Of a stretch of DNA of 64,000 bases, positions 9,501 to 25,585 are shown piece after piece. The notes below the pieces were generated by a model, which did not search any database, had not been told where the DNA came from, and saw only the letters and a program-made list of their open reading frames with translations. The translations under genes were made by a program, and so were the position numbers. Numbering within the stretch: the first letter of the stretch is position 1; every line of letters begins with the position of its first letter. The stretch comes from a virus: IMG/VR virus record IMGVR_UViG_3300042566_000762, positions 42,462 to 106,461 of that record. One strand, 5' to 3'.

Positions 9501-10793
9501 AAAATCTTTAATTATCGCTTCACATTTTACTTTTGCCTCTTTTGCTATTTCAGCAGCTTTTTCTTTAATTTTATCTATACCAGATTTTTCAGCATCAGAT
9601 TTTAATTCTCCACCTCCTAACTTTTGTTCAGGTGGGGGGCCTTGTTCTTGACCTTTTTCACCAGGTGCAGCAGTTGGTTTTTCTTTATCTATTTTTCCCT
9701 GCGGCGTTTGTCCTTTTTTTGTGGGTTGGCCGGGTTCGGATGGTTTCGCCGATTGAGTTGCTGCTTTTCCAGGTTCCGTTTTTTTCTTTGGGTCGTTTGC
9801 AGGTGCATCATCTGGTCCTGCTATTTTTGAAGCTTGAATGTGTGCTGGATGTTCTTTTGGTAATCTTAATGCATCTCTTGCTTTAATTTTCTTTTGTTGG
9901 CCTTTACTATTTGTATAACTAATATCAACATCCAATGCTTTATTTGAAGCTTCACCAAAATATTCTTTAGCAAATTCTTCAAACATTTCATTTGTAATAT
10001 ATCTTTCTATTATTTCTGAAATGGGGTCATATGGTGCTTTATTTCCGTCAAATGCCTTTTTCTCATCTTCGGGATGTTCCGTTTCATGTCTTGTAGGATG
10101 TGGTTCTGGTCTCATTTCCGATGATGGTTTTGTATTATTGGTTTCATCTATTGAACCTGTTGGTGCACCATTGATATATCCTCCCGGTAAATTCAATCCA
10201 ACTCCTATTCCTCCTGGAAATCCTTCGTTCAATTTTGTTGTTATCATTTTAAAAATCTCTTTGTCAAATTTTGGATATGCTTTAAGAAAAAACTTTTTAG
10301 CCTTTTCTTTATCGTTACTTCCCAATCCTCGTCTAACTTCGGTTCCACTTATAGGATTTTCTTCGGCAGGTATTGGATATGTATAACCTATTTCATCGTA
10401 ACCATATCCAGCATTGCCTTTATATGGTTTAAAATATTTTCCCTGTAATCTACTTGCATCTTTATCACCTACTGCTGCAATATATGCAATAGTTTGTCCG
10501 TCATATTTTTTTAATATTTCGGCAGGTCTATATGGATTGTTTACTTTTACAAACTTAGTAGATGGAACACCAAACATCTTAGTTGCAATTTCCTTTTTCT
10601 CATTAAAAGAAAATGGAGATTTATCGGAAGATGTATCATTTGATGTTGCAATATAAACATTTGCAGAACCAAATTCACTTACTAAGTTTTGATATGCCGC
10701 ATAATGTCCTTTATGGAATGGTTGAAAACGACCAGCATATACGACTATTTCACCTTGTATTTTTGGTTTATCTTTTTCTGTCAATAAATTCAT
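6534..10793 (-). CDS. Giant multidomain protein: NMNAT-like + zincin + nucleic-acid-ligase-like
   Basis: A 1419-residue protein with three enzyme-like parts. Residues ~14-190 are an HxGH nucleotidyltransferase of the NMN-adenylyltransferase (NadM/NadR) type: GRFQPFHKGH at 21-30 and ISGTEVR at 148-154. Residues ~325-410 form a Pro/Lys/Gln-rich linker and ~530-600 a Gly/Ala-rich hydrophobic stretch. Residues 762-766 are HEMVH inside LAHEMVHRKQDE, a gluzincin-like HExxH site. Residues ~1030-1240 carry KTDG (K1062), RNKG and NLEVI (1144-1148), which match motifs I, Ia/III and IIIa of covalent nucleotidyltransferases (DNA/RNA ligases). LNE|G at 188-191 and IKE|G and LME|G just before the ligase part fit the prohead-protease consensus. 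It heads the packaging operon. No substrate can be read from the sequence. Confidence 0.85.
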   Translation of the reverse strand: MNLLTEKDKPKIQGEIVVYAGRFQPFHKGHYAAYQNLVSEFGSANVYIATSNDTSSDKSPFSFNEKKEIATKMFGVPSTKFVKVNNPYRPAEILKKYDGQTIAYIAAVGDKDASRLQGKYFKPYKGNAGYGYDEIGYTYPIPAEENPISGTEVRRGLGSNDKEKAKKFFLKAYPKFDKEIFKMITTKLNEGFPGGIGVGLNLPGGYINGAPTGSIDETNNTKPSSEMRPEPHPTRHETEHPEDEKKAFDGNKAPYDPISEIIERYITNEMFEEFAKEYFGEASNKALDVDISYTNSKGQQKKIKARDALRLPKEHPAHIQASKIAGPDDAPANDPKKKTEPGKAATQSAKPSEPGQPTKKGQTPQGKIDKEKPTAAPGEKGQEQGPPPEQKLGGGELKSDAEKSGIDKIKEKAAEIAKEAKVKCEAIIKDFTEEEQHDVHETTNPHSETRKNWSQKIGDFISNLPKNIAEKVYEVVKEKYHQLKNTGRGLKSLALSTMYTGKPKFGWFKDKDGQYKHSEHEEKRQRKACISTLKDVAVIGASVVVGAAIAGATGAAAAGKGIGGVIQAASQGASHSVSSVGGFAAHAAIDFGKHCGLEALGLAAGEGHIEAQVGAGLFGLGHMALKGMGLAEEVNETKANGDMFIKLVADVVKKMETFEPNPQQLLKTLESYKKQKEISKLQNLTKGLNENISETKQNSIQHFVEYATKKLKLKETPKITLLSGREYSEAKTSLGGYNPMSKEIYVAIEGRLTADILRTLAHEMVHRKQDELGLVKDEVKDGATGSPIENQAHAVAGILMRNYGKINKQIYNEDINIDVDKGDEVLMGKFKNKKVVVKDIGKDDHGMPTINGKKATTFRLGQKGQNIYEMGNKDIHFKNIIQLYRDAKFRKRINAFLFGNPNHNNPTAVAKALRNMGYDDITRMEKELNIEPDLNEVSSVMVSNTADVPDGSFVQKGKKRKLNTDKSEDWYKNGGYTQTDFPKADAIFGDDDAEERTITYSIKNLPDVDYVETEFIKEGLLMEGGAYGHMSHPFDDMDLTFGDLKNIIKSALEGDLGVVREKTDGQALAISWKNGRLIAARNKGNLANAGANAMGIEDVASKFAGRGGLTDAYNFAMKDLSAAISGLSEAQRKKIFNEGQCFMNLEVIWPDSVNVIPYGQALLVFHNTTCYNEKGEAVGADQSAASKLAGMIKQVNADVQSKYTIQGPPITSIPKDNNLSSKQGKYLSKLNKLQSEFHLKDTDNVADYHQSWWDWWIESKAPTKVDKITKEALIRRWAFGEKTFRLNTISNEELQEWAIENDKVNVIKQQKENIRPFEEIFLGVGADVLDFVGSVLTVHPENAIRAMKQKFKSVADQVRSAGNPAQIQKLKTELERLNQLGGIEKIVASEGLVFFYNGKTYKLTGTFAPLNQILGIFYA

Positions 10794-10947: not shown

Positions 10948-11490
10948 TTAATTTTGGTAATACAATTCCGGATATTCTACTAATATATATACACCTTTGT
11001 TTTGTGTTGCATATTTGTAAGATAATTCTATATCGGTTGGTGTTTTTAAATCTAAAAATTCTATATTTTTACAAAGAGATTTAAATTCTTCTAAATAATT
11101 TCCTCTGTGTTGGTGACCAGGGTCTAATGGTTTGTCCGAACCTTTACCCAATCTAATTAGAATGTGTGGACGTTTTCCGGTCATCAATTCGTATTTATCA
11201 ATATGATTTACTAATTGATTGGTTGCTGATATTAAAAAATCCCATCTTGGATAAAATGATATTACTAATTTATTTGTCATTGCCAATCCCAATGTCATAC
11301 CCATTTGAGTTTCTTCCATTACTGGTAATTCAATCATTTTATCTTTTGAAACTTCACCCAATGTTGTACTCATTGGATTTCCTGCATAAAGAATTTGTTG
11401 GCCTATGAATATTGAATTATCCAAATCTGATAATTGATTCATAGCAGATGTCAATGCATCTTTGTATGGTGTATATTTTGGTGTGTTCAT
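10948..11490 (-). CDS. Thiamine-diphosphate enzyme, E1 beta-like (pyrimidine-binding) subunit
   Basis: The 180-residue product matches the N-terminal (Transket_pyr) domain of the E1 beta subunit of 2-oxo-acid dehydrogenases: a TLGEVSKD region, then MEETQMGMTLGLAM (the conserved E..xG.a.GaA segment) and FYPRWDFLISATNQLVNH. The usual C-terminal transketolase_C domain (~120 residues) is absent, so it is about half the family length. I use the ATG at 11490, 2 nt after the alpha subunit's stop, rather than the upstream in-frame GTG at 11508. With the preceding gene it should form an alpha/beta thiamine-diphosphate enzyme. Its place in a sugar cluster suggests decarboxylation or ketol transfer on a sugar precursor, which is inference. 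Confidence 0.75.
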   Translation of the reverse strand: MNTPKYTPYKDALTSAMNQLSDLDNSIFIGQQILYAGNPMSTTLGEVSKDKMIELPVMEETQMGMTLGLAMTNKLVISFYPRWDFLISATNQLVNHIDKYELMTGKRPHILIRLGKGSDKPLDPGHQHRGNYLEEFKSLCKNIEFLDLKTPTDIELSYKYATQNKGVYILVEYPELYYQN

Positions 11491-11492
11491 AA

Positions 11493-12131
11493 TTAAAAGA
11501 TAACCCACTTTCCACTTCCGTAGTGAGGGTATTTTGATTTATAAGTATAATGTATTACATCCGATGGAAGGTCTCTCTTTTCGTTCCACGTTGCTTCGGT
11601 TGGTGTGTTTGTTGAAATTCCATTATCTTCTACTATAAAATATAAAGGTAAATTAAAGTTTCTTGCATATTTGTGAACTTCATAAAATATACCACTCTCA
11701 AAACTCATATCACCAATAAAACACCAAACCTTATCCTCTCCACCATCTTTTTTTATAGATAGTGCAATTCCTAATGCAATTGATAATGTTGAACCAACAA
11801 TTGCAGATGAATAAAATTTAGCATCTATATCACACATTGTAATAGATTTACCATCTTTGATTAATTCGGTTGCATAATCGGCAGATATTCCTTTTAAAAC
11901 CCAATGATAATGAGAACGCCACGTTGAGAATACCCAATCCGTTTCTTTAACTCTTTTAAATACTTCTATTAATTGTTCTTCGTTTCCGTTTGATAAATGT
12001 ATTGGGCCTCTTATCTTTCCGGCCTCCCATAAATCAACGATGTCCTGCTCAAACTTAATTAATTTCTCAGGTGTCCAACCAATTTCTATTTCATTTCTTA
12101 CGATTGAATATTGTTCTAAATTTTGTATCAT
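11493..12131 (-). CDS. Thiamine-diphosphate enzyme, E1 alpha-like subunit
   Basis: A 212-residue protein with the thiamine-diphosphate/Mg motif: FIGDMSFESG (G140, D141) followed after ~28 residues by VEDNG (169-171), and an upstream SHYHWVLKG segment, as in E1 alpha or split transketolases. It lacks ~100 residues found in dehydrogenase E1 alpha chains. Its first 19 residues (MIQNLEQYSIVRNEIEIGW) are nearly identical to the start of the short chimeric gene at 13953..14132. The DNA just upstream (12133..12157) is a leftover of an rmlC 3' end. These repeats point to recent recombination at its 5' boundary. It is paired with the beta subunit 2 nt downstream. Confidence 0.78.
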   Translation of the reverse strand: MIQNLEQYSIVRNEIEIGWTPEKLIKFEQDIVDLWEAGKIRGPIHLSNGNEEQLIEVFKRVKETDWVFSTWRSHYHWVLKGISADYATELIKDGKSITMCDIDAKFYSSAIVGSTLSIALGIALSIKKDGGEDKVWCFIGDMSFESGIFYEVHKYARNFNLPLYFIVEDNGISTNTPTEATWNEKRDLPSDVIHYTYKSKYPHYGSGKWVIF

Positions 12132-12132
12132 T

Positions 12133-12157
12133 ATCTATCTCTTTTTTGTAATATTGG
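12133..12157 (-). repeat. rmlC 3'-end remnant, copy 1 of 3
   Basis: Twenty-five bases match 14131..14155 exactly and 12797..12821 with two differences. In frame it still reads LQKRDR-stop, the C-terminus of the intact rmlC-type gene at 14129. Here the remnant has only about 12 codons after a stop and no start, so it is debris 5' of the E1-alpha gene. Confidence 0.75.
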
Positions 12158-12947: not shown

Positions 12948-13402
12948 ATTATTGTTGTATTTTTTGATTTAAATAAATCATTATGTAGAAATCCAACTAA
13001 TGTAAATCTTTTACCTACACAATTTTCTACTCTATGTGTTTCTTCTCCTGTAAAATATATCATAGTTCCTATTTTTGGTTTTATAGTTAGTTCATTAAAT
13101 ATCAATTCACCTCCCGTATATTTATCATTTAAAAATATAACAAATGAATATGGGTTGATATGAGAATGTGTTGTTTTAACTTGTTCAATATTTTCATCGG
13201 TGTATTGTATTCTAAATTTCTTAAAATCACATTTTATAAATTCAGGAATAACATTAACAACTTTTTCTAAATGTGGAATTAAATTTAATCCGTGAAAATG
13301 ATAAATATTATCATATACAGAAATAACATTATTGTTATCCCATAAATTAAGTATCGAATTACATTGTACATTTGATATGTAATTATTTACAATCGTAATC
13401 AT
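12944..13402 (-). CDS. 2-oxoglutarate/Fe(II) dioxygenase-like protein (prolyl-4-hydroxylase type)
   Basis: The 152-residue protein has the double-stranded beta-helix signature of phage P4H-like oxygenases: THSHINPYSFVIFLND (H79), YTGGELIF, IKPKIGTMIYFTG, then ETHRVENCVGKRFTLVGFL with the distal iron histidine H123 and the 2OG-binding R132. The usual first metal motif HxD reads H79-S-H81 here, so the carboxylate ligand is not obvious. It overlaps the next gene as ATGA. A degraded partial copy lies at 13838..13939. Likely substrates are a protein residue or a sugar; the sequence does not say which. Confidence 0.7.
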   Translation of the reverse strand: MITIVNNYISNVQCNSILNLWDNNNVISVYDNIYHFHGLNLIPHLEKVVNVIPEFIKCDFKKFRIQYTDENIEQVKTTHSHINPYSFVIFLNDKYTGGELIFNELTIKPKIGTMIYFTGEETHRVENCVGKRFTLVGFLHNDLFKSKNTTII

Positions 13403-13420
13403 ATAATATTAACTATAATA

Positions 13421-13952: not shown

Positions 13953-14132
13953 TTATGTTTGATTTGCATAACCCAAAGGGAATCCATTTCTAAATTCTGC
14001 TCCCATTTTTGGAACTATCATTTGATATGCCATTATTAATTCCTGTATACCATTATCCAAATTTACATGTGGTCTCCAACCTATTTCAATATCATTTCTA
14101 ACTATTGAATATTGTTCTAAATTTTTTATCAT
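13953..14132 (-). CDS. Short chimera: E1-alpha N-terminus joined to epimerase C-terminus
   Basis: An ATG at 14132, overlapping the rmlC stop as ATGA, opens a 59-residue frame. Residues 1-19 (MIKNLEQYSIVRNDIEIGW) copy the start of the E1-alpha-like protein. Residues 19-57 (WRPHVNLDNGIQ...FPLGYAN) copy the C-terminus of the NAD-epimerase at 15491..16462. The join is at the shared IE.GW codons. The DNA match to the epimerase covers 13966..14081 against 15504..15619, ungapped and almost identical. The product has no Rossmann fold or active site, so it is probably non-functional recombination debris that remains translatable. Confidence 0.65.
   Translation of the reverse strand: MIKNLEQYSIVRNDIEIGWRPHVNLDNGIQELIMAYQMIVPKMGAEFRNGFPLGYANQT
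13966..14081. repeat. Direct repeat, copy A (epimerase 3' end)
   Basis: A 116-bp segment that matches 15504..15619 without gaps and with only a handful of substitutions. The near identity shows the duplication is recent relative to the divergence of the other paralogues here. Confidence 0.85.
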
Positions 14133-14674
14133 CTATCTCTTTTTTGTAATATTGGTGAATCCGTTGGCCATTCGATTTGAAATTCAGGGTCATTCCATTT
14201 TACAACACCTTGTGCGTTTTCTTCAACAAAATCACCTTCATAAAATAAATTATAATGAAATACACAATCGGTTAATGCATAGTGTCCATTTGCAAATCCA
14301 GGTGGAACTAATATTTGGTCTCTGGTTTTTTCAGTAAGTAAATATGAATTCCAATCACCATATGTAGGTGATTCTTTTCTAACATCCAATACTACTAAAA
14401 ATATATCACCGACCAAAGCTTGAACCAATTTCCAAGTCTTATTATCCCAATGCAATCCTCTCAATACACCTTTGTATGATTTTGAGAATCTACCATGTAC
14501 TTTCAAATCTCCGTGCATAAAATTATGAACAGGATGTTCTTCCGGATGATATGTTGTCCAAATCTCTCCCCTATATTCTCTATATACCGATGGTGAAAAT
14601 ACTGGTACATCTTTACCAAATGGTTTTAAAAATGATACATCTATATCATTCCATTTTTTATCTTTATAACTCAT
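14129..14674 (-). CDS. rmlC: dTDP-4-dehydrorhamnose 3,5-epimerase-like protein (RmlC family cupin)
   Basis: The 181 residues are the normal length of RmlC-type cupins. The family signatures are VHGRFSKSYKGVLRGLHWD (catalytic-site RGLHW at 72-76), LVGDIFLVVLDVRK, and ILVPPGFANGHYAL (124-134), followed by a tyrosine at 141. Such enzymes epimerise C3/C5 of dTDP-4-keto-6-deoxyhexoses or act as related 3- or 3,4-ketoisomerases. I cannot tell these apart here, so the gene symbol denotes the family. No RmlA, B or D gene is in view; host precursors may be used. Its 3' end has been copied twice (12133..12157 and the tail of 12795..12947). Confidence 0.82.
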   Translation of the reverse strand: MSYKDKKWNDIDVSFLKPFGKDVPVFSPSVYREYRGEIWTTYHPEEHPVHNFMHGDLKVHGRFSKSYKGVLRGLHWDNKTWKLVQALVGDIFLVVLDVRKESPTYGDWNSYLLTEKTRDQILVPPGFANGHYALTDCVFHYNLFYEGDFVEENAQGVVKWNDPEFQIEWPTDSPILQKRDR

Positions 14675-15489
14675 ATTAATTTATTTTTATGCGTATTAGT
14701 TAAGTATTTTGCTAATTCTTTTGCGTATTCAATATGTCCGAAATATCCAGGATGTAAATCTTCATATCCTGTTAATTCTCCTTTTAATTCATCTGTTATT
14801 GTTAGTTTATTTCTCAAACAATAATTGTAAATATCATCCGATTCCTGTGTGTTTGAAAATTTTATAATATCTTCTTTATCAAATGTAGTTGTTAAATATA
14901 ACCAATTTTTTTGCATTAAAAATATTTTAATATTATTAAATTTACAAAAAGAATATAATCCAGCTAATGCATATTCATCATTTTTTAAATTAGCTTGAAA
15001 ATTAAAATGATTTTCGTGCCAATTTAAAAATATATCTTTATATTCCAAATCTTTTTCTAAAATTTTAGGATTAAAATAATCTCTAGTGGCGCCGGCCATC
15101 TCGTAAATATCACCATCATTTTTTGAATTAACTATATAATATTCGTTGGTTTTATTTAAGAATACATCACATCTACTAGGGTCAGGCTTATCTAATATAA
15201 TAAAAAATTTATTTTTATTTTTCCAATTTTTTTCTATAAAATCATAAGTCATTCTAACTATTCTTTGAACACCTACTCCCGATTTAGCTTCGTTAATACA
15301 TTTCACATTTATTAATTTAGATAATCTATATCCAAAATTAACTTCTTCTCTATTTTTCCAACTTACATTATGTAATTTTTTATATAACCTATGAACACCA
15401 ATACCTCTGATATTCGGTTCTTCTAATCCACCACCTTCACAATGCGAACTTCCGTTAACATAAAAAAATTGATATTTACTAAAATCCAT
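14671..15489 (-). CDS. SGNH-like protein 1
   Basis: The N-terminus MDFSKYQFFYVNGSSHCEGG provides the GxS block I of the SGNH fold. NEAKSGVGVQRIVRMT is the block II glycine region, FFIILDKPDPSRCDVF replaces block III, and DLHPGYFGHIEYAKEL supplies the terminal Asp-x-His of block V. About 272 residues, no signal peptide. I use the ATG at 15489, one base after the epimerase stop; an in-frame ATG at 15507 would overlap that gene by 17 nt. It is one of six related proteins here. Possible roles are sugar O-deacetylation or acyl transfer in the surface-glycan pathway, inferred from neighbours. Confidence 0.7.
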   Translation of the reverse strand: MDFSKYQFFYVNGSSHCEGGGLEEPNIRGIGVHRLYKKLHNVSWKNREEVNFGYRLSKLINVKCINEAKSGVGVQRIVRMTYDFIEKNWKNKNKFFIILDKPDPSRCDVFLNKTNEYYIVNSKNDGDIYEMAGATRDYFNPKILEKDLEYKDIFLNWHENHFNFQANLKNDEYALAGLYSFCKFNNIKIFLMQKNWLYLTTTFDKEDIIKFSNTQESDDIYNYCLRNKLTITDELKGELTGYEDLHPGYFGHIEYAKELAKYLTNTHKNKLI

Positions 15490-15490
15490 A

Positions 15491-16462
15491 CTATCCCAAA
15501 TTTGCATACCCTAAAGGAAATCCATTTCTAAATTCTGCACTCATTTTGGGAACTATCATTTGATATGCCATTATTAATTCCTGTATACCATTATCCAAAT
15601 TTACATGTGGTCTCCAACCGGTTTCTTCTATTTTTGAATTTGATACAATATAGTTTCGTTTATCAGGGTCTTGATAATAATCATCGTATACTACTGCAAA
15701 ATCTTTTACATATTTTTGTATTTTTTCCAATAATTCTTGTTTATTCAAATTTGCATCACTCAATCCAATATTAAAAACTTCTCCTTTATATCTTTCATAT
15801 CTATCCAACATAAATGCAAATACGGATGCTACATCTCTAATATGAATAAAATTTCTTTTAAATGTTTTTTCAAATACAACAATGTATTTATCGGTAATAG
15901 CTTTATAAACAAAATCATTTACTAATAAATCCGTTCTCATTCTAGTTGAAACTCCAAATACGGTTGCTAATCTAAATACGATTGCATCAGTACAATTTCT
16001 TAAAAAATTTTCAGCTTCACATTTAGTTTGACCATAAACCGATATAGGAGTGAGTGGAGATTCTTCATTACATTCCAATTCACCCGTTCCTAACCCATAT
16101 CCACTATTTGTATTTGGATATAGAATTTTTTTATCTTTTCCGTTTGTAAATTTAACAATATTAACTATTTGTTGAAAGTTAATTTCTTTTGCAAGTTGTG
16201 GGTCTGCGTCGCATGCAGGAAACCCAACAATGGCTGCCAATGGAATTATTACATCTGCTCCATCACAAAGTTTTTCTAATAATGTTTCATTACGGACATC
16301 ACCATAAATAAATTTAAATTTAGAAGTATATGTATATCCCAATAAAGATGTTTGATTAAATAATAATTTATCTAATACCGTTACATTGTGGCCATCTTCC
16401 AATAATCGTTTTGTTATAACCGAACCTAAATATCCTGCACCACCGGTAATGAAAACTTTCAT
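15491..16462 (-). CDS. NAD-dependent nucleotide-sugar epimerase/dehydratase (extended SDR)
   Basis: The N-terminal Rossmann motif is GGAGYLGS (7-14) and the catalytic pair is Y143-x3-K147 in SVYGQTKCEA. IIPLAAIVG is the usual strand-4 region and RNFIHIRDVA the substrate-domain motif shared by GalE, RmlB and WcaG-like enzymes. Length 323 is normal. It acts on an NDP-sugar, probably epimerising, dehydrating or reducing it for the neighbouring glycosyltransferases; the exact sugar is not readable. Its last 39 codons are duplicated at 13953..14132. A TATATTTATA sequence lies 13 nt before its ATG, inside the upstream gene. Confidence 0.85.
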   Translation of the reverse strand: MKVFITGGAGYLGSVITKRLLEDGHNVTVLDKLLFNQTSLLGYTYTSKFKFIYGDVRNETLLEKLCDGADVIIPLAAIVGFPACDADPQLAKEINFQQIVNIVKFTNGKDKKILYPNTNSGYGLGTGELECNEESPLTPISVYGQTKCEAENFLRNCTDAIVFRLATVFGVSTRMRTDLLVNDFVYKAITDKYIVVFEKTFKRNFIHIRDVASVFAFMLDRYERYKGEVFNIGLSDANLNKQELLEKIQKYVKDFAVVYDDYYQDPDKRNYIVSNSKIEETGWRPHVNLDNGIQELIMAYQMIVPKMSAEFRNGFPLGYANLG

Positions 16463-17241
16463 AACTTATTTTTAATATAAATATAAAATTCTTTTGAAAA
16501 ATTGTCATGCCATAATTCTCCTGGGTGGTGATTATCTCTAGCTTTTAAATCATTTTTATAACAATTTATTGGGTCAAAAAATGTATCATAATTTATAGTA
16601 GAATTTAATTCCGATTTCAATTCTTTAAAAACATCGTAATAATATCCAGCTATTGTATGAAATATTTTTATATTGTATAATTTTGCAATTACTTCTACGA
16701 ATTTGTAAGCTTCCCAAAATGTCATTAAATCCTGATAATCATTTCTTAATTGAACAAACATCAAATCTTCATCTTCGTTTTTCCAAACTAAATCCATATC
16801 ATTGGCCATTCTAAATCCACCTATTTTTTTAAAAGAACCATTTTCTTTAATATAATCTCTCCTACTAAAACCAGGCCACATTATCAAAACCATATCCGGT
16901 ATAAATTCGGATGAAATTATTTTATATAATGTTTTCGCTATAAATGAAGTCGATGCACCATACATTCCATAATTAAAAACTTTACCAAATTGTTCACCAA
17001 TAAGATTTGGCCATATTTTTTCATTTTTAACACCAATACCCATAGTCCAAGAACAACCCAATGTTAATATGTTATAATCGGATTTATCTTTTAATGGGTT
17101 AGAACGATACCCATGTTCATTCATTTTATACCAAATTGTATTATCATCATTTGTATCACTTGCTAATGTTGGTAATATTTTATTTTTATATTGTTCAAAT
17201 ACAAAGACATCATCGGATAATATTTTTTCAAAATCTTTCAT
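16459..17241 (-). CDS. SGNH-like protein 2
   Basis: 260 residues. After a lead of ~55 residues, NILTLGCSWTMGIGV gives block I (GCS), NYGMYGASTSFIAKTL the block II glycine segment, MVLIMWPGFSRRDYI the block III equivalent, and ARDNHHPGELWH the Asp-x-His block V. No signal peptide. The start coincides with the previous gene's stop (one shared base) and the end overlaps the epimerase start by 4 nt. The family arrangement is the same as in the other five SGNH-like proteins of this island. Confidence 0.72.
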   Translation of the reverse strand: MKDFEKILSDDVFVFEQYKNKILPTLASDTNDDNTIWYKMNEHGYRSNPLKDKSDYNILTLGCSWTMGIGVKNEKIWPNLIGEQFGKVFNYGMYGASTSFIAKTLYKIISSEFIPDMVLIMWPGFSRRDYIKENGSFKKIGGFRMANDMDLVWKNEDEDLMFVQLRNDYQDLMTFWEAYKFVEVIAKLYNIKIFHTIAGYYYDVFKELKSELNSTINYDTFFDPINCYKNDLKARDNHHPGELWHDNFSKEFYIYIKNKL

Positions 17242-18683
17242 TAAATAATTAAGTTATTTTGAATAGAATACAATTCGTTTATAAAATCTGCACCATATAA
17301 TTTTGTGTTATTATATTCTAAAAATAATTTTTGATTATGTAGTAATATATCTTCCATTTTCCAATACCATTCATGCAATTCTTCATTTGACATTGAACAC
17401 AATCTTTTAATTTCATTGTGTATAGCTATCATTCTATCTGCTGTCGACTCAATTGTATCATATGTCTCATCTATGAATCCGTCAAATGTTTTAAATCCTA
17501 AGTCTCTTAACAATTGTAAACCCCCTGCAAATGTTACAAATATAAATGGTTGAAAATTAACAATAGGTTTAAATATTTTTTCAGTAAGAGATTTATGTTC
17601 ACCATCTACCAATGTTTCAAATAATATTTCAAAATAAGAATCCAAATGTGGTTTAAAATCAACATCAGTCCATGCATTTATTTCTCCGTAAGTATTTCCT
17701 GTTTCACTTTGTAAATTATGTGGAAACATCGTATATGCTGATTTAATTTTGTCTGCATCTATATCATGTAATTTATACTCAGATATTAAATGCCTTAAAC
17801 TGGGTTCATTTAATCCGTTTGTTGATAAAAATGACCAATCTCCATATTGTAATAAATCATCATTTATCATTCTATACATAACTGCCAACCTATGTAATCT
17901 GGCATTTCGCATTTTCATTAAGTATTTGTTTGGTCTTATTGTATTTTTACTGTTATTAAAATCATCTATATTCATTGATAATTTTAAATTATTTTTTATG
18001 CCATCGGAATAAAACCAAGAACCATGGTCTAAACAAAATGGTAAATTTCTAACTTCGTATTTTCTATCTTGTGGTTTAAACCAATTTTCATACAATTGTC
18101 TGGCATTAAAACTATTGACAACAACAAATATTGATGTTGATGGTAATCCACTATTTTTTAAACATTCGGTTAATCCGTTATGCATGTTTAAATCTAAAAA
18201 AGGTTCCATTGTATAATCTATGTAAATAATTCCTTTTCTTTTTTTTACTTTTTCCAAAACTTCTCTTGAAATAAATTTCCAAAAATACGAACCATTTAAT
18301 TTGTCAGCTATACCATTTTGAACGCCTGTGAATTGTGTAAATATTGGATTTGGTCTAATTGGATATATAAATTTTTTATTTGTATTTCTTTCAAATAAAA
18401 CCGAAGATTCTTTATAATCTAAATGTTCTCTATAAACATTGGCTTGGAAAAAATATCCATGTGCTGTATTGGGATTATGACCCATTGAATCTTCAAACAT
18501 ATCTTTCATAAAAATTTGATTACCTCTATCGGTTGTAGATGCTTCAAATATTGTAGAATGCAATGTTCTATTTGTGTGGACAGACGATATATAATTTATG
18601 ATACCCAGTTGGGTATCTAATGCATTTGGTAATATAAAAGTAGGAAATATGTAATCAAATACAAATGTTAATTGTTTTTTCAT
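17241..18683 (-). CDS. Putative glycosyltransferase with a fucosyltransferase-like C-terminal block
   Basis: A 480-residue cytoplasmic-type protein. The C-terminal segment SLTEKIFKPIVNFQPFIFV (from about residue 363) followed by LLRDLGFKTFDGFIDETYD resembles the nucleotide-sugar-binding block of GT10 or exostosin-like GT-B enzymes (xxEKxFxPxxxxxPxI). The N-terminal half is not recognisable to me. It lies between two SGNH-like genes with 0-2 nt spacing. Sugar donor and acceptor are unknown; the glycosyltransferase call rests on the C-terminal block and on context. Confidence 0.6.
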   Translation of the reverse strand: MKKQLTFVFDYIFPTFILPNALDTQLGIINYISSVHTNRTLHSTIFEASTTDRGNQIFMKDMFEDSMGHNPNTAHGYFFQANVYREHLDYKESSVLFERNTNKKFIYPIRPNPIFTQFTGVQNGIADKLNGSYFWKFISREVLEKVKKRKGIIYIDYTMEPFLDLNMHNGLTECLKNSGLPSTSIFVVVNSFNARQLYENWFKPQDRKYEVRNLPFCLDHGSWFYSDGIKNNLKLSMNIDDFNNSKNTIRPNKYLMKMRNARLHRLAVMYRMINDDLLQYGDWSFLSTNGLNEPSLRHLISEYKLHDIDADKIKSAYTMFPHNLQSETGNTYGEINAWTDVDFKPHLDSYFEILFETLVDGEHKSLTEKIFKPIVNFQPFIFVTFAGGLQLLRDLGFKTFDGFIDETYDTIESTADRMIAIHNEIKRLCSMSNEELHEWYWKMEDILLHNQKLFLEYNNTKLYGADFINELYSIQNNLII

Positions 18684-18685
18684 AA

Positions 18686-19474
18686 TTAATAAAATAATTT
18701 AGGGCCTAACCAAAAGGCTTTATTAAATGGTTCTAAAATGATTTTAGAGTAAATTTCATGTTGTAATTTAGTTGATTTATTATTAACGGCTTTTAGTGAT
18801 AACTCATATCTTAGTTTAGATTCTAATGTATCGTATTCAGGAAAAGTTTCCTTTAAATATTGGTAATGCATCGTTTGAGTTGGGTGTGTATCATAGTCAT
18901 TTTGGTCATCATATTTTACATATTCTAACTGATTTGGGTAGTTTTTACGTCTCCAATCATCCATAGATTCTTTCACATCTAACATATCATAAATTGAATC
19001 AAAATAATATTGTATTAATTTATTATCTTTATATTCATTTGATAATGAATTATTATTCATAGATGTCAAAAATGTGTGTTTAATATTTTTTAGTGTTAAT
19101 ATTTCTTTAATAGTTTTAATTGCAATAAATGATTGATAAACTGACCATTCACTTGACCACATATTTTCTAAAAACTCATTTGATATGTCAGGATTGAAAT
19201 AAATATTTCCACCATGCACCCAGTTATTTTTATTTCTAAAAGAAAGCCTATCCATATTAGTAAACATAACAATTACATAATCCGTTTGATTTAAATTTAA
19301 ATTATTATTGACTTCTATAAATCTGTTCATTATAAAAGTATTGGATGCACCACCTTGTCCAAAATTCATATATTCTTCAAAATTTGCACCCATATAATCG
19401 GCCCATGTTGCAGTAAAATATCCAGTATAACTGCAACCAAATGTTATTAGTCTTTTATTATTAAATGTAGTCAT
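18686..19474 (-). CDS. SGNH-like protein 3
   Basis: 262 residues. LITFGCSYTG (block I), NFGQGGASNTFIMNRF (block II), YVIVMFTNMDRLSFRN (block III equivalent with the family's conserved arginine) and YDTHPTQTMHYQYLKE (block V, D-x-H) are all present. There is no secretion signal. The start overlaps the upstream SGNH gene by 14 nt, which fits translational coupling. The protein continues ~55 residues beyond block V, longer than its paralogues. Confidence 0.72.
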   Translation of the reverse strand: MTTFNNKRLITFGCSYTGYFTATWADYMGANFEEYMNFGQGGASNTFIMNRFIEVNNNLNLNQTDYVIVMFTNMDRLSFRNKNNWVHGGNIYFNPDISNEFLENMWSSEWSVYQSFIAIKTIKEILTLKNIKHTFLTSMNNNSLSNEYKDNKLIQYYFDSIYDMLDVKESMDDWRRKNYPNQLEYVKYDDQNDYDTHPTQTMHYQYLKETFPEYDTLESKLRYELSLKAVNNKSTKLQHEIYSKIILEPFNKAFWLGPKLFY

Positions 19475-20252
19475 TATTTTTCAATTTATCTAATATTATT
19501 TTGTATACTATTTCATGTCCTATATTTGATGTGTGCATTGTATTCATATCATCAGGATATTGATGGGAAAGTTTCATAAAATCTACATTGGCCAAATTTT
19601 TCATAGGAATATATTTATTAAATTCAACCAAATCATATGTTAAAAATATATGCTTAATACCTTTATTTTTTAATAATGAATGTGCTAAATTCATCATACC
19701 AATATCATATTGTCTTTGAATATTATCATCAAATATTTCTAAATAATATTCTTTTAATAATTTCATTCTAGTTTTACTTTCAGTATCAAATCTACTATAA
19801 TAATTGGATTTCCAATTTGGATTGTCCATACAATTATCCACATAATCAATTATACTATTAAAATTTTCAGTTAATAATTTACCATTATAATCACCATCTA
19901 ATTGCATTGGATTTGGTATATTATATTTGTAACTATCTTTACCAAATGGTGGATATTGGTGATAATTCACATTGGTATTCTTAATATCTCCATTAAATTC
20001 ATAATTTTCAGGAAACCATTCCGTTCGATTATATGTTGTAACACCGATGCACATTAAATCAATATTTTTATAATTTTCAATTGCATATTTTACTTGTAAA
20101 AATATAGAAAAATTAGAACTAGACCCTTTAGCTAAATTTATTAAATTTAAATTTAATTTATCAGATAATAGTGAACCATATGGTTCTTTTTCTAAATTAT
20201 GACAACCAATTCCTATATTAAAAGAATCTCCACAAATAACTAAATTATTCAT
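19461..20252 (-). CDS. SGNH-like protein 4
   Basis: 263 residues. LVICGDSFNIG is a classic GDS block I. NLAKGSSSNFSIFLQ is block II and CIGVTTYNRTEWF the block III equivalent. Near the C-terminus MNTMHTSNIGHEIVYK holds a histidine, but the residue two before it is not aspartate, so block V is degenerate unless another carboxylate serves. It is the only member of the six where the Asp-His pair is not evident. Overlaps the upstream gene by 8 nt. Confidence 0.68.
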   Translation of the reverse strand: MNNLVICGDSFNIGIGCHNLEKEPYGSLLSDKLNLNLINLAKGSSSNFSIFLQVKYAIENYKNIDLMCIGVTTYNRTEWFPENYEFNGDIKNTNVNYHQYPPFGKDSYKYNIPNPMQLDGDYNGKLLTENFNSIIDYVDNCMDNPNWKSNYYSRFDTESKTRMKLLKEYYLEIFDDNIQRQYDIGMMNLAHSLLKNKGIKHIFLTYDLVEFNKYIPMKNLANVDFMKLSHQYPDDMNTMHTSNIGHEIVYKIILDKLKNNDYI

Positions 20253-21126
20253 ATATAAGTTTATTTTGTTTTATATAATCATATAATTCATTTGCCCATA
20301 TCAAATGCGATTCTTCTGATGGATGCCAACCTGAATATGGGTTATTTATTGCATTTTGTTCCATAAAAGATTTAAATGTATTATTTTTTTTATTCTTTTT
20401 ATAAAATCTAATAGAATCAATACTTTCCCACAATGATACATATTCTTGTTTATAGTATTCTCTTTCAAAATTTTTGTTAGTATGATATGGATGATTTTGT
20501 AAATGTAATTTTTGCAATTCCAATTTTATATCAATGTCTTTCCAAACTTCAATAGATGTTCCAACATTTTGATAAAAGGAATTAAATGATAACCATTTTA
20601 TATTATTTGCTTTACAAAAATTTTCAAATTGTAAAATATTCATAATATGTCTTGGTAAATATTCTTCTTTATTCCAAAGATATTCAACATAATAATTCCA
20701 AAATTCTTTTTGATTTTCTTTTTGTAGATTTTGAATGGATGGCCAGATTCTCATATTGTAATTCAAATCTTCATCTTTATACCAAAAAGAATTTCGTTCA
20801 GGAGATGACCAACCAACTAATAAAAATAAATTATCAGTTGGGATATTTTTTACAATATAATTTGAGGTAACATATGTTATTATTCTGTTTAATATGGTAT
20901 TATTATCATCTGCAGACCAACTTAAATTTATTACATCTGCGTCTAATAATTTACCTAAATGAGTTGAAAATATTTTAGATAATCTATATTCGTTATTTTC
21001 ATTAATCCAATCATATTCTCCGGCATGAGTATTTGTTGGTTTATTTTTAAGTATATTTGGGTCTAATATTTCTGAACCAAATACCCAGCTATCCCCATCA
21101 CAAATAATTTTTAATTTCTTTTCCAT
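20245..21126 (-). CDS. SGNH-like protein 5
   Basis: 293 residues. KIICDGDSWVFGSE provides GDS block I, NLSWSADDNNTILNRI the block II region, LLVGWSSPERNSFWY the block III equivalent and NPYSGWHPSEESHLIWANEL block V, where the histidine follows a tryptophan and not D-x. It shares one base with the upstream gene. The largest of the six, with an insertion of ~60 residues between blocks III and V. Confidence 0.68.
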   Translation of the reverse strand: MEKKLKIICDGDSWVFGSEILDPNILKNKPTNTHAGEYDWINENNEYRLSKIFSTHLGKLLDADVINLSWSADDNNTILNRIITYVTSNYIVKNIPTDNLFLLVGWSSPERNSFWYKDEDLNYNMRIWPSIQNLQKENQKEFWNYYVEYLWNKEEYLPRHIMNILQFENFCKANNIKWLSFNSFYQNVGTSIEVWKDIDIKLELQKLHLQNHPYHTNKNFEREYYKQEYVSLWESIDSIRFYKKNKKNNTFKSFMEQNAINNPYSGWHPSEESHLIWANELYDYIKQNKLIYE

Positions 21127-21785
21127 TATATTAATTTTGCTTTAAACGCCGTTTCAGTATCGTGATATATTTTATTAAGTATTATTTTAGAAAAATCTCT
21201 ATGTCCCTTATATGACCAATGTAAATCTTCTATTTCACCATTGGTACAAGTTTTTATATTTTCATAAACTGTCCATAATTGTTCTACTTCCCAAAAAACC
21301 AATTTATCTATTTTTTTATTTTTTAAATATTTTTTAATAAAATCAAATCTTAAATTTTGTCTTTTTTTAGTATTTTCATCGCAAAGTAAAGATAAAAAAT
21401 ATTCTATATGTTCTATTTCATTTTTATTAAAATTCAATTGTTTTAATAATGCCGATGAATTTAAACTAATTGTATTAAATTTATAAATTATATCATTTTT
21501 AATATTAAATTCATTATTTGGAATATCAAATCTACTATAAAAAGTTTTGCCTATTATTACAATATCATCTTTAGAAATCAAATCTATTTTTTCAATTATA
21601 TTATCAAGTATTCTATCATTTGAAAGGCCGCCATAACCAAAATTAACTAATTTCAAATTTAATTCATTGGCAACGATATCTGGCCAATGCATGTCACCAT
21701 CTATTCTATATTTTTGAGAATATTCACATTCTTCATGTGTTTTATTAAATGTGAACGAATCACCAAAAGTAAATAATTTTTTCAT
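21126..21785 (-). CDS. SGNH-like protein 6
   Basis: I choose the ATG at 21785 (MKKLFTFGDSFTF), one base after the upstream stop, over a longer frame from 21812 that overlaps that gene. The 219-residue product has GDS block I, NFGYGGLSNDRILDNI block II, IVIIGKTFYSRFDIPN as block III equivalent, and IEDLHWSYKGHRDFSK as block V with D-x-H. It is the most compact of the six and may represent the minimal fold. No signal peptide or membrane segment. Confidence 0.72.
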   Translation of the reverse strand: MKKLFTFGDSFTFNKTHEECEYSQKYRIDGDMHWPDIVANELNLKLVNFGYGGLSNDRILDNIIEKIDLISKDDIVIIGKTFYSRFDIPNNEFNIKNDIIYKFNTISLNSSALLKQLNFNKNEIEHIEYFLSLLCDENTKKRQNLRFDFIKKYLKNKKIDKLVFWEVEQLWTVYENIKTCTNGEIEDLHWSYKGHRDFSKIILNKIYHDTETAFKAKLI

Positions 21786-21786
21786 A

Positions 21787-22653
21787 TTAAGGTTGGCCAA
21801 AGTTATCACCATACCAATCTACGGAAATTTGATGTATTTCTTTCCAATTTTTGACACCATCTAATTGTTTATCCTCAGCTTCTTTTCTGACAATATAGTA
21901 TGGTGTAGTAACTTCTCCTGTCGGATATATTTGCCAATTTATTAAATGTCTATATAATGTAGTACCGGGTCCTAAATTGAATATTGTTTCATCCATAATT
22001 TCGTTTGAATTTAATTTCAACTTATCTGCAGTTACAACTTTGTGTTGCCATCTAAATGCATTTCCAATAATGTCCATTGTGGGTGAATCTGAATAAAAAA
22101 ATACATCGTCAAATGAAATTGTATTAAATTCTTTTGGGAATCTTGCTAAAAATTCGGCCGATGAATAAGCTGAAAATGGTTGGGTTGGATGAACATAAAA
22201 TTTATTAGTCATAAAACCAAATCGTGGAAATGGGTCTAATGAAAAGTTTAAATCAAATCTACTTTTTATTACTAAATCATATACAAAATCATTTTCAATT
22301 TCATATTTTCTTTTTAATTGAACAACTTTCATCAAACTATAAAAAAGTGGAGACCATACATTATTAAAATCTGCTGCGTTGTATTTTTCATATTCCATTA
22401 AAACCGGGTTGAATGCGTTTTGTATTTCGGTTTCGGTTATCGGGTCTAATAAATAATCATCACCTTCCCATCTTTGTTTTGTTTTATCTCTATAACTATT
22501 TGTATCCCAAGTATGAACAAAATAATCAACTTCTACTTTTTGTTTTGTAAAATCATTTACCTTTATATTGAAATAATTTAATATATTTTGTATACCTACT
22601 TTGAAAGTTCTGGATTGGCCGGTCAGTAAAATTGCAACTTTAAATGGTTTCAT
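21787..22653 (-). CDS. Glycosyltransferase-like protein of the HTWD family, copy 1
   Basis: 288 residues. The N-terminal strand KVAILLTGQSRTFK resembles the nucleotide-binding start of GT-A enzymes. VDYFVHTWDTN (HTWD at 47-50) and DLVIKSRFDL (129-135, DxD-like position) are shared with the genes at 22656 and 40208. I know such proteins as phage-encoded putative glycosyltransferases; activity is unproven. It ends one base before the SGNH-like protein 6 start and follows its paralogue by 2 nt. Confidence 0.65.
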   Translation of the reverse strand: MKPFKVAILLTGQSRTFKVGIQNILNYFNIKVNDFTKQKVEVDYFVHTWDTNSYRDKTKQRWEGDDYLLDPITETEIQNAFNPVLMEYEKYNAADFNNVWSPLFYSLMKVVQLKRKYEIENDFVYDLVIKSRFDLNFSLDPFPRFGFMTNKFYVHPTQPFSAYSSAEFLARFPKEFNTISFDDVFFYSDSPTMDIIGNAFRWQHKVVTADKLKLNSNEIMDETIFNLGPGTTLYRHLINWQIYPTGEVTTPYYIVRKEAEDKQLDGVKNWKEIHQISVDWYGDNFGQP

Positions 22654-22655
22654 AT

Positions 22656-23411
22656 TTAAATAAAATTTATTTTTTTATCATTTAAAATATTTAATCTATG
22701 CATTTTCATATCAAACATTCTCAGAAAATAACCAAACATATATTCTGGTGATATATTTTTTGGAAACTGTTCACTTTTTAATAATGGTATCATATTATAA
22801 ATTGAACACAATACATCGAATGTTTGTGAATTTGCAAAGAATAAATTAAAATTAACAACATCATATGGAAATTCAAATGTCTTTATAACATTGGCTGGAA
22901 AAACCATTCTGTCGTTTGGTATTGTAAATTTGTCTAATATAGTATTAGTTATAGTATCGTTCATCATTACATCACTTGATAATCTGAAGCAAACATCGTA
23001 TTCAAAATTGTGTTTTAATTCATATTCTCTTTTAATATGAGATGCCATCATCATACTATAAAATTCAGGTGCATGCTTTAATAATAAAGATTTATGATGT
23101 GTGTTACCTGCATGTTGATATTTTAATTCATTTAATGTATCCGCTCTACTTATATATTTTTCAAAGTTTTCAATTTTAATATCTTTGGGTCTTACAAAGT
23201 TTTGAAAATCTAACAAAACCGAATTATCTATCATTTTGATTTCACTATGGTCATTGATATTAAAATCCCAGGTATGAACAAAAATATCAAATGATGCATC
23301 TGTATTAAAATATTTAGATGAATTTAATATTTTATAAAATAAATTATTCCATGTAGAATATTTATCTAACCAATTTTTTAAATTACCTGATATACAAACT
23401 GCTATTTTCAT
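22656..23411 (-). CDS. Glycosyltransferase-like protein of the HTWD family, copy 2
   Basis: 251 residues with the same plan as its downstream neighbour: N-terminal strand MKIAVCISGNLKNW, FDIFVHTWDFN (HTWD 46-49) and VCFRLSSDVMMND (143-152) in place of IKSRFD. Overall similarity is moderate, so the duplication is old compared with the near-identical repeats at 13-15 kb. Probably transfers a sugar in the island's glycan pathway; donor unknown. Confidence 0.65.
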   Translation of the reverse strand: MKIAVCISGNLKNWLDKYSTWNNLFYKILNSSKYFNTDASFDIFVHTWDFNINDHSEIKMIDNSVLLDFQNFVRPKDIKIENFEKYISRADTLNELKYQHAGNTHHKSLLLKHAPEFYSMMMASHIKREYELKHNFEYDVCFRLSSDVMMNDTITNTILDKFTIPNDRMVFPANVIKTFEFPYDVVNFNLFFANSQTFDVLCSIYNMIPLLKSEQFPKNISPEYMFGYFLRMFDMKMHRLNILNDKKINFI

Positions 23412-23414
23412 ATT

Positions 23415-24170
23415 TTAAAAATATATATTATTTTTGATATAAAGTTGTGGGTTATTTCCTTTAAAAGATAAATCCCAAATCTTATAACGATTGTGATTTA
23501 AAAAATTACAAAAAAATGAAAAAGAATAATCCGTTTGCATTTTGTTATTAATTCGTTTTAAATCTCCAGTAACTTCTATTAAGTTTTCATTATAACTTTT
23601 AGATATTTCAATTACATCTTCAATTGTTAAATTTTTTGTTGATAAAAAAGATAAATCATATTCAAAGTCACCAAAGCTAGAATGTTCATCATCGGAAATC
23701 ATATTACCACATCCAAACCAATAAAATGCACCTTTATAAGAAACTTTATCCATATCAATATAATATATTAAACCCACCAATTCGTTGTTTATGTAACAAT
23801 CAATTGTTTTTTTTGCATCATTACAAATCATTGTATAATCATTATATTCATCCCAATTAGATTCATCAAGTAATACGGATACATCTTTATAAATTGGTGT
23901 GGTTTTTTCTATATCCGTTGTTTCATAAAACCAATAAGAAAATTGAATAACAATTTTATCATTTGGGTCTTTGAATGTAGATATGCCAGCATGCATACCA
24001 TTTCTTGCTAAAATATATGCTGCTTTATTTGTTATTGTTTCTGGAAACAATTTAGCCTTTACATATAATGTAAAGTCTTTATCCATACATTCATCTATTT
24101 TATCGGATAAACCATATATGTTTTCGGTTAATATAAAAAATATATTATCTTTATTTATTTTTAAACTCAT
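23415..24170 (-). CDS. LamG/concanavalin-A-like lectin-fold protein
   Basis: The 251 residues alternate beta strands in a pattern typical of laminin-G/concanavalin-like folds: FTLYVKAKLFPET, KIVIQFSYWFYET, YTMICNDAKKTIDCYINNELVGLIYY (the ligand-rim strand pair) and AFYWFGCGNMISDDEHSSFGDFEYDLSFLS. No enzyme motif and no signal peptide. It is located between the radical SAM gene and two glycosyltransferase-like genes. Related LamG segments are inserted in the two galactosyltransferase-like proteins nearby, so a shared glycan-binding role is plausible. Confidence 0.6.
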   Translation of the reverse strand: MSLKINKDNIFFILTENIYGLSDKIDECMDKDFTLYVKAKLFPETITNKAAYILARNGMHAGISTFKDPNDKIVIQFSYWFYETTDIEKTTPIYKDVSVLLDESNWDEYNDYTMICNDAKKTIDCYINNELVGLIYYIDMDKVSYKGAFYWFGCGNMISDDEHSSFGDFEYDLSFLSTKNLTIEDVIEISKSYNENLIEVTGDLKRINNKMQTDYSFSFFCNFLNHNRYKIWDLSFKGNNPQLYIKNNIYF

Positions 24171-24172
24171 AT

Positions 24173-25585
24173 TTATATTGTTTTACAAAAGTTATAAAAT
24201 TCTTCTAATTCAGGGAATGTTTTTACAAAATCAGTTCCTCTTCTTTTATCATGTTCAGTAAAAAATTTGTAAAAATCACTTCGATTTCTCATTTGTTGCT
24301 GTGCATCTTGTGGTGAAATCATCCAATCGTATATTCTTTTAATTTTTTGAACTTCAACATCACTATATCCAATATGTGTATGGTCAAATGATGGTGATGC
24401 ATAATATGTAATCAATTTAACTTGGTCTACAATATATTTAGAAAAATCATAAGGAAGAATTTGTACGGTTTGATGTAATGGAAATCTCAAATACGATGAA
24501 TCCAAAAATGTTGCTGAGTTCCAATATCTATCGGTGCTAGCATATTCATCTTTTAATTTATAGACTTCATGTATTAATTTATTGTAATTAAATAAACTTA
24601 ATGCATTATAAGTTGACATAAATGTAACATTTGTTCTATTTAATGAACTCAATATTTTATTTACATTATCCCAAAACCTATTAAATTCTAAACCATTACG
24701 AATATATTCAGCTTGGGGGCCCCATGTATCACACGATGTAAATATTACAATTTCTTTAACTCTACCTTCATCTTCAATTTTTTTAATTTTTTGAATAAAC
24801 TTATTTATCAATTCATCTGGTGCACCTAAATTTGAATTAATTGCTAACTTCAATTCTCTATTTGGGTTTTCTTGTTCTAAAATAAAATCCAATACTCCCC
24901 AAGTATCTTTTGACAATAAAGGTTCACCACCAGTAATTCTAAAGGTATGTAAATCCCTATATAATTCAGGCCACCATTTCCAAAATGCGTCTACATATGG
25001 ATTTGGTTTACTATGTGGAATCGGAAATTTATTTTCAGCTTTTAACCAATCATCTGAATTAAACTTGTTAGATGTTGGGTATCCACCGAATTTACCAATT
25101 TCTTCTACCCATTTAGAACTATATGCGGGCCCGCAATATGAACATTTAAAATTACATGCATTACTAAATGAAACTTCTACATATTTTGGATTATAATCAT
25201 CTCTCCAATTAGAATTAAAAATTTCTTCTTTAAATGGTAAAGACCAACTTTCACCTGATTTAAAAATTCTATCACTAAATCTATCGGAATTATCTTCTAC
25301 ATTCCAACAATAGTCACACTCTTCAGGTCTTGCACCACTTAACATTTCTTTTCTGCGAAGTTTTTTATATCTTGTATTATGAAGTGCCGATGGATTACGT
25401 TCAATTTCTTTTTCAGAAATTTTATGAGTTCTAGGGTGGTGACATGAGTGGTTATGACCACTTTGTAATTGTAAAGTTACTTGTGTCCATTTTGCTAAAC
25501 ACATACCAGTTCCTACTTCATTTAATTCGTCTTTTAGTTTTGTGTAAAACGGATTATCAAAATTTATTTTTTCTTCTTCTGCCAT
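24173..25585 (-). CDS. Twitch-domain radical SAM protein
   Basis: 470 residues. The radical SAM cluster motif is C144-x3-C148-x2-C151 in SNACNFKCSYCG, followed by the GGEPL motif (RITGGEPLLSK). Upstream, C29, C48 (CHHPRTHK), C90 and C93 (EECDYCWN), with KLRRKEMLSGARPEEC between, match the N-terminal region of twitch-type radical SAM proteins, which hold an auxiliary or partial cluster site. Such enzymes do radical chemistry on peptides or sugars. In this cluster a sugar or peptide substrate is possible; I cannot choose. It lies 2 nt downstream of a galactosyltransferase-like gene. Confidence 0.8.
   Translation of the reverse strand: MAEEEKINFDNPFYTKLKDELNEVGTGMCLAKWTQVTLQLQSGHNHSCHHPRTHKISEKEIERNPSALHNTRYKKLRRKEMLSGARPEECDYCWNVEDNSDRFSDRIFKSGESWSLPFKEEIFNSNWRDDYNPKYVEVSFSNACNFKCSYCGPAYSSKWVEEIGKFGGYPTSNKFNSDDWLKAENKFPIPHSKPNPYVDAFWKWWPELYRDLHTFRITGGEPLLSKDTWGVLDFILEQENPNRELKLAINSNLGAPDELINKFIQKIKKIEDEGRVKEIVIFTSCDTWGPQAEYIRNGLEFNRFWDNVNKILSSLNRTNVTFMSTYNALSLFNYNKLIHEVYKLKDEYASTDRYWNSATFLDSSYLRFPLHQTVQILPYDFSKYIVDQVKLITYYASPSFDHTHIGYSDVEVQKIKRIYDWMISPQDAQQQMRNRSDFYKFFTEHDKRRGTDFVKTFPELEEFYNFCKTI

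Follow-up and report, generated by a model that had tools for sequence, protein, structure and literature searches.

Sequence analysis of a 64,000-nucleotide stretch of DNA from an uncultured virus of bacteria (bases 42462-106461 of the 106,461-base record IMGVR_UViG_3300042566_000762; hereafter the window, GC content 29.6%) indicated that six genes, designated A to F and spanning positions 14671-21785 on the minus strand, encode divergent members of the SGNH/GDSL fold superfamily in which a conserved Arg stands in place of the classical GxND motif of block III. We favour, with a probability of roughly 0.55, the interpretation that A-F are cytosolic SGNH/GDSL-fold enzymes of ester chemistry, which attach O-acyl groups to a phage-directed glycan or its sugar precursors, or take them off. 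The record also encodes a T4-type Gp23 capsid protein (E 2.2e-77) and is therefore assigned to a tailed phage related to T4.

The six genes encode divergent paralogs

All six open reading frames (ORFs) were found in the window (Table 1). The ORF of gene F was listed from position 21812; since its relatives begin at the ATG at 21785, the latter is probably the start.

Plain blastp comparisons among A-F were weak, the best E value being about 4e-6 (B-C) and many pairs not being significant. Profile-profile comparison of extended groups linked all 15 pairs with probabilities of 72-99.7%: the lowest value was obtained for B-D (72%, E 3.4e-5) and the highest for C-F (99.7%, E 1.2e-26), F was linked to every other member at more than 99% (A 99.2%, B 99.6%, D 99.6%), and the link between A and E reached 97.6%. 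Six unrelated neighbour families, used as controls against A-F, gave probabilities of 2% or less. These results supersede a first hhalign comparison of small alignments (4-5 rows), in which probabilities were low.

Relatives were collected from 110 loci and the window, 111 sources in all, which were reduced to 91 loci by removing 20 sub-loci of the same contigs and to 68 by removing 23 near-duplicates. The 91 loci, comprising 2,068 ORFs, contained 224 members, 183 of them unique, and at least two members were present in 52 of the 91; because the loci were picked for holding a member, include some near-duplicates and in many cases stop at a contig end, these counts do not represent natural frequencies. 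At less than 70% identity 137 members remained and 135 were aligned, the two excluded sequences being a broken-gene fragment (L024:10434-10946) and a weak match on the opposite strand (L052:7031-7912). The resulting 135-member profile matched just A-F over the whole 106-kb record, E in two pieces.

Iterated hidden Markov model searches seeded with A, B, D, E or F all converged on one set of 133 among 822 ORFs, 91 of the set being unique; the search seeded with C stalled at 18 ORFs. Judged by these sequence comparisons, A-F are divergent paralogs of a single family. In the phylogenetic tree the members fall into deep orthologous groups A-F plus two more, G and H, which are missing from this array.

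Among the Pfam families, DUF6071 (PF19547) recognized E (E 1.1e-10; 42.1 bits, gathering cut-off 27). F scored 13.1 bits against the same model, under the cut-off, and A-D were not among its matches; F also matched Lipase_GDSL under the cut-off (E 3.4e-4). Two NCBIfam matches, to flavodoxin and sigma-54, each involving one member at E about 8e-4, were dismissed as noise.

E and F are predicted to adopt the SGNH fold

AlphaFold2 models of E (pLDDT 79.4, pTM 0.80) and F (pLDDT 83.8, pTM 0.81) were built on 17-sequence alignments and compared by VIA-align and Foldseek. In VIA-align the best match was TesA for both: 1ivn for E (Z 14.0, root-mean-square deviation 3.2, 167 residues aligned) and 4jgg for F (Z 11.8, deviation 2.9, 138 aligned). 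Nearly all further matches of E and F were esterases of the GDSL/SGNH type or carbohydrate esterases, CE2 among them. Foldseek alone returned nine PDB matches for E at E <=0.001. Judged from the predicted secondary structure, the conserved Ser comes after strand 1, the Arg after the third strand and the His ahead of the last helix, an arrangement shared with SGNH enzymes. The models thus show an SGNH, flavodoxin-like fold for E and F.

The 135-member profile matched solved SGNH enzymes, the best being 4rsh (E 4.6e-6), and also the CE2 acetylxylan esterase Est2A (3u37, E 3.5e-5). The preliminary description of this DNA had claimed six SGNH-like paralogs in one island, had proposed checks by profile search and structure prediction, and had named folds unrelated to SGNH as grounds for abandoning the claim. 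The 15 profile links, the profile matches to solved enzymes and the SGNH folds of E and F, the two proteins to which the structural check was applied, all bear it out. A mere chance resemblance of motifs in proteins outside the SGNH superfamily might explain why Pfam matches exceeded the cut-off for E alone (as DUF6071), with A-D unrecognized, and yet it is hardly credible, being contradicted by the same fold matches, profile matches and pairwise links.

The profile also weakly matched the tail-associated lysin gp59 (6v8i, E 5.1e-5), and one PHROG match of F carried the label tail fiber (E 0.002). SGNH domains do occur in phage tail proteins, and A-F could be tail-spike-like virion esterases that remove acetyl groups from the host surface polysaccharide during adsorption. 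This we regard as very unlikely: A-F are short, single-domain proteins in which no tail domain was found (Pfam, PHROG), the fold matches cover nearly all of E and F, and the genes are located among genes of sugar metabolism.

An Arg replaces the GxND motif of block III

Five columns are at least 90% conserved among the 135 members (F numbering): G8, S10, N48, R85 and H189. The G-x-S nucleophile motif of block I is present in all six proteins as GSS (A), GCS (B, C) or GDS (D, E, F), in agreement with the G(D/S/C)S pattern described previously. The Gly-rich block II attributed to all six was found in five; E has WSADDN, with Ala at the Gly column, and Gly occupies that column in 99 of the 135 members.

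GxND at block III was found in none of the 135, the lone text match being located upstream of this block. At the sixth residue beyond the Gly position usual for block III, 131/135 members have an Arg, in line with the atypical, Arg-bearing block III noticed earlier. Four positions before this Arg, at the site of Asn in GxND, Thr or Ser is found in 113/131 and Pro in 13/131. Each of the orthologous groups A-H has this Arg without exception (group sizes for conservation: A 5, B 11, C 11 and D 19 sequences). When all 183 unique members were considered, gaps left out, Arg occupied 174/177 aligned cells and Ser 171/175. Some SGNH enzymes, TesA among them, carry an Arg right after GxND, and the Arg may therefore be an old retained residue and not a new one.

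Ser and His are each kept in 131/135 members and Asp in 80/135. Asp-x-His had been described for block V of four proteins, the other two being called degenerate; it is present in A, C and F, whereas B has Asp-x-x-His (matching DxxH), and D and E indeed keep the His without the Asp. The state of block V is constant inside each orthologous group. The ratio of nonsynonymous to synonymous substitution rates, calculated by a simple Nei-Gojobori method, was 0.11-0.48 over 16 valid comparisons of 18 (0.11-0.28 for D and E); the two comparisons of gene A with its L028 relative were left out, the codon register being lost. All six genes, where computable, are under purifying selection.

Two rows scored as lacking His (L101, L107) resemble alignment slips, the His being one column earlier, and Arg is replaced by Lys in L061 and L070. 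Four of the 135 rows lack Ser, one of them (L055) truncated; Fisher values for the joint losses depend on these four rows and are not taken as proof. The other three, L047:7331-8008, L057:7333-8004 and L059:9489-10094, have lost Ser (to Asn or Gly) together with Arg and/or His: two are also without Arg and two also without His. These three are likely to be pseudoenzymes inside their arrays, and the joint losses hint, no more, that the Arg works together with the catalytic residues.

Arrays of this kind, and the encoding of members side by side with overlaps, would fit a complex that is catalytic only in part, with pseudoenzymes among its members serving as scaffolds or regulators of the rest. 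Such a complex is unlikely for the window, where all six proteins retain Ser, Arg and His. The idea that the expansion reflects distinct acceptors or a multi-part complex, put forward in the preliminary description, is speculative.

Relatives are found in uncultured phages

The same six genes, in the same order, are present in contig 3300032304_000700. Other loci contain seven (L014) or five members (L013, L015, L017 and L020). Gene E in L024 (L024:10001-10946) and gene B in L027 (L027:14639-15339) are each split into two ORFs, which could be due to mutation or to sequencing error.

All relatives found come from viral contigs. Among 50,697 annotated phage records, tblastn with A-F and three distant members retrieved nothing; the window carbamoyltransferase, used as positive control, matched 144 of these records. 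No match to the 135-member profile was obtained in the cultured marine T4-like phages HTVC008M, P-SSM2 and S-CAM8. Two pattern scans of bacterial genome contigs, derived from the E and F alignments, retrieved no relative, these being short peptide patterns that distant bacterial relatives could escape. The pattern for gene C retrieved no viral locus by itself; C orthologs turned up beside other members.

In BFVD, similar folds were found in uncultured Caudovirales phages (33 matches at E <=0.001), mostly uncharacterized and some labelled SGNH hydrolase; the broad family has therefore been seen already. The Arg-marked clade is widespread in uncultured phages. In the literature searched (titles and abstract starts, subscription papers being outside its scope) no paper was found on such SGNH arrays in phages or on DUF6071, and no precedent for the replacement of GxND by such an Arg.

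The array is embedded among sugar genes

Neighbouring array genes are separated by -17 to +3 bases, and the six are packed together with a sugar epimerase gene, a 480-aa gene and others, as in an operon. The surrounding genes are listed in Table 1; a 2-oxoglutarate oxygenase and a SET protein are also encoded beside the array (Pfam). The motif TATAAATA, considered as a late promoter, has 17 occurrences in the window where shuffling predicts 23.0, which provides no evidence for a promoter.

Table 1. Genes A-F and neighbouring genes (window positions).
Feature	Position	Strand	Remarks
A, paralog, 278 aa	14671-15507	-	Ser21, Arg112, Asp250-x-His252
B, paralog, 260 aa, N-terminal extension of ~55 residues	16459-17241	-	Ser64, Arg127 (Arg128), Asp236-x-x-His239
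C, paralog, 262 aa	18686-19474	-	Ser15, Arg76, Asp195-x-His197
D, paralog, 263 aa	19461-20252	-	Ser10, Arg76, His240, without Asp
E, DUF6071 (PF19547) member, predicted SGNH fold, 293 aa	20245-21126	-	Ser13, Arg111, His268, without Asp before His
F, paralog of predicted SGNH fold, 219 aa	21126-21785	-	Ser10, Arg85, Asp187-x-His189
Split thiamine pyrophosphate (TPP) enzyme (E1-like subunit and transketolase-pyrimidine subunit)	10948-12131	-	Pfam
RmlC-like dTDP-sugar 3,5-epimerase	14129-14674	-	Pfam 9e-34; 4-base overlap with end of A
NAD-dependent sugar epimerase/dehydratase, between B and A	15491-16462	-	Pfam 9e-34
Family c0, conserved 480-aa gene between C and B	17241-18683	-	Glycosyltransferase-like by eye only
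Family c2, two tandem genes	21787-23411	-	PHROG 13607, unknown function; glycosyltransferase-like by eye only
Family c5, conserved gene without known function	23415-24170	-	
Radical SAM protein, family c1	24173-25585	-	Pfam 1.2e-6, just below cut-off
Two tandem GT7-type galactosyltransferases, each with a Laminin_G_3 lectin-like domain	25588-28412	-	Pfam

Several of these families recur in the 68 loci: c0 in 23, c1 (radical SAM) in 22, c2 in 21, c3 (epimerase) in 17, c4 (a mannose-isomerase/nucleotidyltransferase protein) in 16 and c7 (carbamoyltransferase) in 12, counts that cover array-bearing regions alone and so denote recurrence, not enrichment. At E 0.001 c0 matched neither Pfam nor PHROG families, and the c0 and c2 profiles found nothing in the PDB. 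The window carbamoyltransferase has its nearest counterparts in marine T4-like phages (about 30% identity), and the gene is present in eight of 10 phage records (this one and nine related, which may be fragments). In the same 10 records no AT3 (PF01757) or MBOAT membrane partner was found.

By hydropathy, none of A-F has a strongly hydrophobic or membrane-like stretch (highest 19-residue mean 1.13). The lack of a signal peptide or membrane segment by this measure, together with TesA as the closest fold match of both models, would suit simple hydrolases (TesA- or lysophospholipase-like) that cleave small esters or thioesters inside the cell, act in host takeover and have nothing to do with glycans. 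We consider this rather unlikely, as fold similarity does not give the substrate, the sugar-gene setting is conserved over the loci, and one general esterase role hardly explains six retained paralogs.

Other features were observed in the region. A 1419-aa protein (window 6534-10793) has an N-terminal cytidylyltransferase-like match (PHROG 395, E 1.5e-12, residues 8-184) followed by a long unassigned remainder. The intergenic segment 13796-14155 is composed of gene scraps 76-95% identical to nearby gene ends, like a recombination scar; the matching gene ends are 15500-15625 (epimerase 3' end), 13210-13286, 13348-13419 and 12070-12157 (5' end of the TPP gene). In a related locus, a 617-aa protein near the SGNH array (L047:3792-5645) has a C-terminal intein/HINT-like match (E 3e-6, under the Pfam cut-off).

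Comparison with known SGNH enzymes

A-F share with the SGNH/GDSL superfamily (E. coli TesA; PF00657, PF13472) the predicted fold of E and F, the GxS of block I, and a His near the C-terminus, ahead of the last helix, at the position of the catalytic His. Block II is of the N-x4-G type in most members, Gly being kept in 99/135. The family differs from the superfamily in the conserved Arg, the absence of GxND from all 135 members, and the Asp-x-His or missing Asp of most groups. At E 0.001 PF00657 recognizes 22 of the 135 members and PF13472 12. Since the fold is common but the GxND motif is not found, A-F are best described as an Arg-marked divergent clade of the SGNH fold superfamily and not as part of the motif-defined SGNH family; they vary a fold family that is already known and do not constitute a new kind of protein. 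DUF6071 includes gene E and matches 23/135 members at E 0.001, whereas the other five window proteins are under its cut-off; it has no stated function, and the fold and Arg signature are new here.

Asp-x-His and Asp-less dyads, both present in the array, both occur in CE2: CjCE2A has Asp333 and His335 (Asp-x-His), and CtCE2 and CjCE2B have active Ser-His dyads in which a main-chain carbonyl stands in for the Asp (PMC2661963). The Trp-His-Pro of E, whose Pro is seen in E only, resembles Trp790-His791 of CtCE2 (PMC2661963). D and E, called degenerate earlier, do lack the Asp, but given these active dyads and the purifying selection on both genes they are probably not dead. CE2 enzymes differ from the array in keeping the oxyanion-hole Asn (PMC2661963); in addition, the SGNH domain fills E and F, leaving no room for a second domain.

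In CE20 enzymes the block III Asn is replaced by Gln (PMC12313940). The SGNH domains of the O-antigen acetyltransferases OafA and OafB have no evident GxND and an atypical oxyanion hole, and their role is glycan acetylation (PMC7448272); unlike A-F they are periplasmic and fused to an AT3 membrane domain, and the replacement residues differ. Loss of GxND and loss of Asp are thus each precedented in active glycan esterases or acetyltransferases.

Proposed function of A-F

The assignment of A-F to ester chemistry on a glycan is supported by the sugar genes adjoining the array in this record and in its relatives. The analysis itself establishes the homology of the six, the predicted SGNH fold of E and F, the conserved residues, the purifying selection and the gene context; catalysis, substrate, direction (transfer or hydrolysis) and the role of the Arg are inferred.

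Several observations weigh against this assignment. Catalysis is not assured because GxND is absent, and the losses of Ser, Arg and His in some related arrays imply that non-catalytic roles occur in the family. The models cover E and F, the SGNH fold of A-D being supported by profile homology, and for F Foldseek by itself gave no PDB match at E <=0.001 (best 1.8e-3, a GDSL protein). The glycosyltransferase-like look of c0 and c2 was judged by eye, library searches giving it no support, and the carbamoyltransferase says little about a glycan because in P-SSM2 it lies among replication genes.

Under the ester-chemistry assignment, A-F would place or remove O-acyl groups, probably O-acetyl, at distinct sites on a single glycan or on its precursor sugars, the glycan being built or altered by the phage with the neighbouring epimerase, RmlC-like, TPP, GT7 and radical SAM genes. 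The block I Ser would form the acyl-enzyme, aided by the block V His, which would be polarized by Asp in A, B, C and F; in D and E something else, such as a main-chain carbonyl, would take this part. The Arg in place of GxND may stabilize the oxyanion or anchor an acidic donor or acceptor. The end effect would probably be a fine-tuning of the sugar coat.

That A-F are acyltransferases and not hydrolases, which the preliminary description held possible, is conjectural. The failure to find AT3 or MBOAT partners in the 10 records removes one known periplasmic route of acyl transfer, but would still be compatible with transfer from a soluble donor. A more specific proposal, which we put forward tentatively, is that of a large phage-specific SGNH branch in which the invariant Arg now performs the task of GxND, at the oxyanion or as donor anchor, and whose tandem paralogs O-acylate different positions of a phage-built glycan as a combinatorial decoration module.

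If the assignment of A-F to glycan ester chemistry is true, phage genes without known function, including Pfam DUF6071, would be given a fold and a residue signature, along with a chemistry that can be tested, and the exchange of GxND for Arg would probe how far an SGNH active site can be rebuilt. It would also mean that phages have evolved their own multi-enzyme kit for the ester decoration of glycans, which would bear on how they mask their virions or alter host surfaces.

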